Assembly (NCBI GenBank): GCA_938048815.1
Contig: CALIUI010000032.1
Coordinates: 1-34,381, forward strand
Length of the DNA stretch: 34,381 bases
Source of the DNA: an uncultured Aquificaceae bacterium
GTDB lineage: Bacteria; Aquificota; Aquificia; Aquificales; Aquificaceae
Reading direction: 5' to 3'
Under the pieces are notes generated by a model that was given only the letters and a program-made list of their open reading frames with translations, searched no databases and was not told the origin of the DNA. How positions within the stretch are numbered: the first letter of the stretch is position 1; every line of letters starts with the position of its first letter. Shown piece after piece: positions 7,105 through 28,359 of this stretch. The translations under genes were made by a program, and so were the position numbers.

Positions 7105-8040
7105 ATGGGAAGGGTTGCGGTTTTTGATATTGAAACTTTTTGTCCTATTGAGGAGATAGAAGAGGAAGACCTGAATTATCTACAAAACAGGAGGGACTAT
7201 AAATCACAGGAAGATTTCAAAAGGGAGCTTTCTACTAATCCTTATGTAGCCTGCATAATATCCTTTGCCCTTTTCTTTCCAGAAGAAAATAAGGCAGAGG
7301 TTTATTATCTTTCTGATACAGAGGTAAAGGATGAAGATGTCTGGAAGATAGAAGGCAGGAACATAAATATTTCATACAACTCTTTATCAATTGTGGATGA
7401 TTTATACAATGGGGAAAAAGAGCTTATAAAGACATTATGGGAAAGGCTTTCTCAAGTGGATAAGCTCATAACCTTTCATGGTATAACTTTTGATATGTAC
7501 TTTCTAAGAATAAGAACTATTATACACAACCTAAAACCCAAGAATTTCTTTTATAAAATTTACCACATTGACTTAAAAGACCATTTGGGCACGCGTGGAA
7601 AGAACTATACCCTTAATTTTATAGCCAAAAGGATGAAAATAACTTTAAGTAAGGGAGATATGGATGGCTCAAAGGTGGATCATCTATTCAGGAATAAAAG
7701 ATACAAAGAAATAGCTCAATACAACCTTAAAGATGTCTTGATCACAGGGCTACTATATGAAAGGGTTAAAGATTATATATACGAGGACTACATGCATGAA
7801 TGCATGCAAAGCCTAAAGGATCTTAAATACATACAACAAGCTATAGATGATAATATAATATCTTCAAAGGAAATTTCAGAACTAATAGATTTCTGCAAAA
7901 ACAAACAAACACCTACAGATAAACAGAAGCAATATCTTAAGGATTTAATACAAAATGTATACCCAGAGGATATATACTCCAAGCTAAGACCAGAAACCAT
8001 AGAAAGGATTCTTAGACACTTTGAAGAAGAGATAACTTAG
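7105..8040 (+). CDS. predicted 3'-5' exonuclease related to the PolB exonuclease domain
   Basis: VAVFDIETF (DxE), KLITFHGITFDMYFLRIR and YNLKDVLITGLLYERV motifs. Start at 7105 preferred over 7081 because GGGGAGG lies just upstream. Confidence 0.75.
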   Translation: MGRVAVFDIETFCPIEEIEEEDLNYLQNRRDYKSQEDFKRELSTNPYVACIISFALFFPEENKAEVYYLSDTEVKDEDVWKIEGRNINISYNSLSIVDDLYNGEKELIKTLWERLSQVDKLITFHGITFDMYFLRIRTIIHNLKPKNFFYKIYHIDLKDHLGTRGKNYTLNFIAKRMKITLSKGDMDGSKVDHLFRNKRYKEIAQYNLKDVLITGLLYERVKDYIYEDYMHECMQSLKDLKYIQQAIDDNIISSKEISELIDFCKNKQTPTDKQKQYLKDLIQNVYPEDIYSKLRPETIERILRHFEEEIT

Positions 8041-8102
8041 GTATCATAAAACCTCTCCCTAAAAGCCCTAACTTCATGCATACTCCCAAAGGTTATCCAC
8101 AC

Positions 8103-8240
8103 ATCATATACCACTTATGTAGGAGAGGATAAAGATAGCTGCTATTTGGATATCTGTTAGTTTGGGCTTTCTGCCTGCTTTGGGTTTTGACACTTCTAAG
8201 AAGGGCAGGGCATTTTCAAAGGTGTTGTAGGGCTAATATT
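8103..8240 (-). pseudogene. transposase N-terminal relic (non-IS5 family)
   Basis: Minus strand reads PYNTFENALPFLEVSKPKAGRKPKLTDIQIAAIFILSYISGI*, resembling the GRKPKLTDxQI start of several transposase families. Confidence 0.5.
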
Positions 8241-8256
8241 ATAGCCCTACTGCCTC
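8227..8256 (+). terminator. inverted repeat GTAGGGCTA-ATATTA-TAGCCCTAC, possible terminator
   Basis: Perfect 9-bp stem, 6-nt loop; a T-rich stretch (CTCTTTTTATT) follows shortly after. Confidence 0.45.
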
Positions 8257-8334
8257 TTTTTATTGATGGGCTTATCTCTGAACTTTCTTGAATTTCTCAC
8301 CCAGCATATTGAGGAAGTATTTTAAAATTAAACT

Positions 8335-23122: not shown

Positions 23123-23146
23123 TAATATAATTTTAGGACTATACGC

Positions 23147-23294
23147 TGGATAAGGAAATTGGATGTAGGGTTTAATCCGCCAATTGCCCGTTAAACAAAA
23201 ACCATTGGGCAGTTTATGATTTAACTCGTAGGGGCGTATTGCCGTACGCCAAAAAAAATGGGCGCTCCTACAGGGGAATTTCTCACCCGGCGTG
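23147..23294. repeat. dispersed intergenic repeat with inverted ends, between the PRT gene and thrC
   Basis: Left TACGCTGGATAAGGAAATT, right AATTTCTCACCCGGCGTG (inverted); interior CGTAGGGGCGTATTGCCGTACGCC and GGGCGCTCCTAC. Confidence 0.7.
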
Positions 23295-25424: not shown

Positions 25425-25540
25425 CATGAACCACCACAAAAAATTCAAAATTCTGGTAGTTCAGGCTTCCAGCCTGTATTTTATCGCAGGCAAGGATGCC
25501 TGCGCTACCGATAAAAGGGGGGATTTCTTACCGGGCGTAT
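25425..25540 (+). repeat. dispersed foldable intergenic repeat, copy B (best-preserved)
   Basis: GGTAG 25455-25459, CAGGCT-tcc-AGCCTG 25462-25476, GCAGGCA-agga-TGCCTGC 25486-25503, CTACC 25505-25509, right end GATTTCTTACCGGGCGTAT. Confidence 0.85.
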
Positions 25541-27708: not shown

Positions 27709-28074
27709 TACACCGAATGAAAATTATCTTTACGTGGAGACAACTCACCAATTGCCTCCATGAAAGGTAAATCTCCACCCTGTATATGATTTATATTATA
27801 TATTTTTACGCTGAAGTGAGAAATTATCTTTTGTAGGGGTATATGGCTTTGGTGAATAAATCTATAAAGGGGGCTTTTTAACATTCCTATCTAAGGAAGC
27901 CAATGGGCAAGTCTATAAACAAAACGCTGGGGCGGGTGATTTACCGCCACAAGGAATTTAAAATTCTGGTAGCTCAGGCTTCCAGCCTGTTTTTTTATCG
28001 CAGGCAGAGGTGCCTGTGCTACCGATAAAAAGTGAGATTTCTCACCCGGCGTATGATTTATATTATATATTTTT
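27709..28074. repeat. two tandem inverted-end repeat units, each followed by an identical 23-bp AT-rich tail
   Basis: TATGATTTATATTATATATTTTT at 27785-27807 and 28052-28074; units start ACACCGAATGAAAATTATCTTT and TACGCTGAAGTGAGAAATTATCTTT. Confidence 0.8.
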
Positions 28075-28230: not shown

Positions 28231-28279
28231 TGATTTCAGTATAGGGGTATGTTTAACCTGGGATTTTTGAAACAACCTC
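28231..28279 (-). mobile_element. solo left end of the tnpB-type element
   Basis: Minus strand GAGGTTGTTTCAAAAATCCCAGGTTAAACATACCCCTATACTGAAAT, matching left ends at 396 and 24721. Confidence 0.6.
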
Positions 28280-28359
28280 AACACTTTATTGACTTATAAA
28301 AAAGAGGTTCTCTATCCAGAGTGGGTGTAAAATATCTTCAAAAGTGCAGGAGGTGAAAG

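Follow-up and report, generated by a model that had tools for sequence, protein, structure and literature searches.

A probable mini-transposon insertion beside a decayed relative, with a duplicated 22-bp target, and its long-duplication IS982-like kin

The window analysed here, a stretch of 34,381 nucleotides from an uncultured Aquificaceae bacterium (contig CALIUI010000032.1), contains two short units with inverted ends, each of which is followed by the same AT-rich tail, and the question is how this tail came to be present twice. The 23-mer TATGATTTATATTATATATTTTT stands at 27785-27807 and again at 28052-28074, and the two copies are perfect, exactly as the preliminary description had it. 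When the whole 1,594,706-base genome was searched with up to two mismatches allowed, only these two sites were found, while the reversed control pattern of the 23-mer gave 0 sites in the same 1.59-Mb genome. Thus, the repeat is not a matter of chance. The first T of each 23-mer (27785 and 28052) is the final base of the terminal repeat of the preceding unit, so the 23-bp repeat is real but only 22 bp of it, ATGATTTATATTATATATTTTT, are duplicated flank. Its left copy (27786..27807) is exact and anchored at the 5' end of unit 2, and its right copy lies at 28053..28074, these being its only two genomic sites.

The units themselves were compared with each other and with the rest of the genome. Unit 1 (27710..27785, + strand) is a decayed 76-bp family member with the ends ACACCGAATGAAAATTATC...AATCTCCACCCTGTAT. 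None of 5000 shuffles aligned to the family consensus end as well as its 5' end, and the alignment of its 3' end gave p=0.0004 against shuffles. No second copy of unit 1 was found in the window's genome, its left flank has no match to the tail, and its own target duplication is not seen. Judging by its sequence, we read unit 1 as probably an older, shrunken and decayed member of the family, and its end lies directly against the target edge of the duplication. Unit 2 (27808..28052, + strand) is a 245-bp miniature element (MITE) of a dispersed family, as indicated by its genomic matches and by termini like those of an autonomous insertion sequence (IS) described below. Its ends are ACGCTGAAGTGAGAAATT (5') and GATTTCTCACCCGGCGT (3'); relative to the family end ACGCYGGGTGARAAATT, the 5' terminal inverted repeat (27808..27825, + strand) carries a one-base insertion and the 3' repeat (28036..28052, - strand) has 1 mismatch. 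A pair of inverted REP-like palindromes can be read in its interior at 27968..28023, with the sequences GGTAGCTCAGGCTTCCAGCCTG and CGCAGGCAGAGGTGCCTGTGCTACC, and both are present also in other copies. Unit 2 holds no open reading frame of 100 aa or more, and Rfam gave zero matches across the window. The earlier view of tandem inverted-end units is therefore correct as to the inverted ends, which belong to one family, but the units (76 vs 245 bp) are alike only at these ends and are not tandem copies of each other.

Members of this family, about 150-245 bp long and with the terminal inverted repeats ACGCYGGGTGARAAATT, are dispersed in the window's genome in at least 40 copies. Two BLAST searches of this genome, with the best 40 candidates scored in each, gave 46 and 45 matching segments, some of which are two pieces of one copy, and many of the 46 terminate at unit 2's own ends. 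The end ACGCYGGGTGARAAATT, with up to three mismatches, occurs at 175 sites in this genome versus 12 for the reversed control. The typical copy is about 150 bp long, is bounded by ACGCYGGGTGARAAATT and its inverse and contains two inverted REP-like palindromes; unit 2 is a 245-bp variant, whose additional interior is common to copies on contigs C128, C79 and C28. Mobilization of the element as a REP/BIME by a RAYT (Y1/HUH transposase) was considered and rejected, as the window's genome gave no PF01797 match; within the genus, such a match was found in G006 only. Elsewhere in the window, a copy of the 150-bp MITE that lacks its 5' part lies upstream of the gene for inositol-phosphate synthase (25430-25538). 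Two ends of the family type, one of them perfect and the other with 4 mismatches, stand 151 bp apart at 23143-23293 and may mark a further MITE. Several MITEs have a second, GAGGCTGTTTCAAAAACC-like dispersed repeat nearby, which was seen at 28268-28290 of the window and in the flanks of three further loci (L026, L031 and L040).

The complete, single-contig genome of a member of the same genus (G005) contains 21 complete ISs of 966 bp with the termini of this family, and the unit 2 family and this IS have the same 17-bp termini. The IS encodes a 282-aa protein, an IS982/IS5-like DDE transposase, whose match to the NCBIfam IS982 model is weak (E=1.3e-6). For the transposases of the family as a whole, NCBIfam IS982 is the best or near-best match (24-48 bits, E from 3e-5 to 1e-12), at scores that do not reach the curated cut-off of 130 bits. 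Relatives also match IS5 models, and the G056 member exceeds the Pfam DDE_Tnp_1 cut-off. An AlphaFold2 model of the transposase was modest (pLDDT 71, pTM 0.64), and the top Foldseek matches were Mos1 and other DDE transposases, none at E<0.001; neither result was given any weight. The window's genome itself carries fragments of the IS, at most 83% identical to the G005 protein and several of them at or near contig ends, as would be expected if a repeated IS had broken a short-read assembly. The - strand of the window also bears a remnant of this IS (8040-8307), with transposase fragments at 8052-8223 and one terminal repeat at 8291-8307. In a genome of another family, G056, a 185-aa transposase fragment (L212, G056:C1:1003413-1003967) is 98% identical to the G005 IS, a likeness in sequence that suggests recent horizontal transfer. 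Contig scans of named genomes for the IS gave no relatives.

The reading of the tail as a long target duplication, offered in the preliminary description as one of several, is strongly supported by the behaviour of this family, which makes duplications of 23-38 bp at many sites. In G005, 14 of the 21 complete ISs lie between direct repeats of 23-38 bp that adjoin the IS ends to the base; 12 of these repeat pairs are perfect and 2 imperfect. These repeats score 14-38, against a 99th percentile of 4 when flanks were swapped between copies; the 99.9th percentile of this null was 23 and its maximum 27, and at least some of the high swapped-set scores stem from overlapping fetched stretches or from exchanged flanks. 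The comparisons used the stretches of sequence around the matches. Some of the repeat-less IS copies have swapped flanks with one another: the pairs L133/L135 and L147/L149 share them crosswise, a pattern that marks rearrangement through recombination between IS copies. A pair of IS copies in G012 (L232/L245) has crosswise-shared flanks attributed to the same cause. Solo MITEs of G005 have repeats of 24-31 bp in 5 cases. Outside the genus, related ISs carry repeats of 24-33 bp in 7 of 8 copies (3/4 in G056, 3/3 in G038 and 1/1 in G079), at transposase identities of about 49% (G056 and G038 vs G005) and 63% (G079 vs G056). No long repeat was found at the single-copy or degraded ISs of G083 and G097, nor, inside the genus, at the ISs of G009 and G012.

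In the window's own genome, 6 of 31 elements have direct repeats above the 99th percentile of the null, versus 0.3 expected, among them L037 (15 bp) and L192 (about 24 bp). The other 25 MITEs are within the null and show no clear long repeat, which we read as a reflection of their age. The edge shared by the two units also has parallels, as at three loci of G005 (L153, L165 and L166) one element ends exactly at the start of the duplicated stretch of the next, as in the window. The simplest explanation of this shared edge would be that a favoured target was used again. It would not account for everything, since the outermost tail copy, on the left side of the first element, is absent from the window and from L166; at L165 it is present with one mismatch, but the IS there lacks its right end. 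In none of the 11 relatives examined does waaA lie upstream of pgi, and no empty counterpart of the waaA-pgi locus could be compared. A tRNA as the insertion target was rejected, as none was found.

We thus consider it very probable, at roughly 0.9, that unit 2 is a MITE that inserted beside unit 1, and that the 23-mer tail consists of the 22-bp target-site duplication plus the last base of the unit. Members of the family share their termini, the autonomous elements carry a transposase gene, and end-anchored repeats of 22-38 bp accompany many of them. Unit 2 would then be a non-autonomous mini-transposon, presumably mobilized by an IS982-like DDE transposase, that inserted directly beside an older, decayed relative, unit 1. 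The transposase would link the element to both strands of the target at points separated by 22 bp, and the subsequent gap repair would turn the 22-bp stretch into a direct repeat, leaving the order unit 1, tail, unit 2, tail. Several points speak against this explanation: most MITEs of the window's genome show no clear long repeat, the left flank of unit 1 does not resemble the tail, and unit 2 combines a perfect duplication with diverged termini, its 5' end having gained 1 bp.

The order of unit, tail, unit and tail resembles a tandem array, and it could in principle have arisen by duplication of one unit together with its tail, followed by divergence of the units. However, the tails are 100% identical while the units differ in both length and interior, the interior of unit 2 matches dispersed copies elsewhere, and relatives often carry solo elements with long repeats on either side, so we regard this origin as very unlikely. 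Slightly less probable still is copying of the tail by gene conversion or recombination between family members. The IS copies of G005 did exchange flanks by recombination, but the tail is confined to the window locus, which leaves no donor elsewhere, and its edges match the unit ends to the base. Recent tandem duplication and gene conversion, both proposed earlier, are therefore unsupported here. That the AT-rich tail adjoins both units could also mean that it is a part of the repeat element, in which case the 23-mer should accompany every copy, as had been envisaged before. It does not: other family copies are bordered by different sequences, including their own flanking repeats, and even with 2 mismatches the tail has two sites genome-wide. 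This last idea is refuted in the window's own genome, and we assign it next to no probability.

Returning to insertion of unit 2 with duplication of its target, the duplicated stretches were examined for features of the target site. Among the 42 edges of 21 duplications pooled, C stands just outside in 28 cases, and the first and second positions inside hold A in 35 and T in 38, giving the consensus C^AT...AT^G. Of 22 duplications, 9 contain an exact TATAAT, where shuffles give 3.5 (p=0.0015). The mean distance of the best TATAAT-like hexamer from the centre is 3.3 bases versus 5.8 (0/2000 shuffles). Both results come from a set of 22 sequences dominated by G005. TATAAT (listed as ATTATA) is also the most enriched A/T-only hexamer (12/27 vs 4.8). 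In the 5 sequences from G056 and G038, centring of TATAAT was not significant (p=0.23). Eight of the nine exact boxes begin 7-12 bases from the element edge, which would place the terminal-repeat motif TTCTCA 15-20 bases upstream of them. These results suggest that the targets tend to centre on TATAAT, and hence may be core promoters; a plain preference for flexible AT-rich centres, instead of promoters, is the alternative. At 7 of 13 IS loci with a repeat pair, an edge lies inside a predicted start codon (AT^G); by a rough estimate, this number could result from the preference for C^AT within intergenic DNA, and start-codon targeting is not claimed. Tentatively, and at somewhat less than even odds, we propose a distinct IS982-like lineage that makes duplications of 22-38 bp and chooses core promoters. 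Its C^AT...AT^G joining would bracket a roughly central TATAAT-like box, so that each insertion doubles the -10 region and leaves the adjacent gene with a copy of the promoter, to which the element end may contribute a -35-like TTCTCA.

The length of a target duplication reflects the spacing at which a DDE transposase joins the target strands, and it is usually short and typical of the family. We see the divergent, long-duplication IS982-like lineage as the new part of this work, with promoter targeting as a hypothesis. A small IS982-like transposase spanning 22-38 bp in several genera would imply an unusual target geometry and offer a small system for its study. If the centring on TATAAT is true, the transposon would enter promoters while leaving its neighbour a copy of the -10 region. 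Tandem arrays of element and tail may moreover be readable as repeated hits on one target.

Among known systems, the IS982 family has ISs that measure 845-1282 bp and carry a single transposase gene of about 208-326 aa, and its published duplications are 2-10 bp long (Fayad et al. 2020, PMC7335449). The lineage described here resembles it in IS length (966 bp), transposase size (282 aa), ends beginning with 5'-AC and the match to NCBIfam IS982. Compared by eye with the IS982 terminal repeat AC(N)6T(N)5TT, ACGCCGGGTGAGAAATT agrees in the initial AC, in the T of position 9 and in just one of the two final T positions. In contrast, its transposases score 24-48 bits against the cut-off of 130, and its duplications are 22-38 bp instead of 2-10 bp; a literature search covering open-licence papers found no long duplications for IS982. 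Unusually long duplications are shared with the IS1202 group of the IS1202 family (16-28 bp, PMC10132070). However, the ISAjo2-type ISs are about 1.5 kb long, with TnsB-like transposases of 441-457 aa and ends starting with TGT (PMC10132070), whereas here the ends start with ACGC and the transposase has 282 aa. The long and variable duplications of IS1634/IS1549 (8-514 bp) and of the IS1182 family (2-60 bp) are likewise similar; as to differences, no IS1634 model came up in the NCBIfam scans, and IS1182 was matched only once, at E=0.08. Finally, unit 2 is like the bacterial MITEs in being short (245 bp) and non-coding, in sharing its 17-bp termini with an autonomous IS and in having a target duplication, and it differs from them in the length of this duplication, 22 bp, next to the 23-38 bp of the IS itself.
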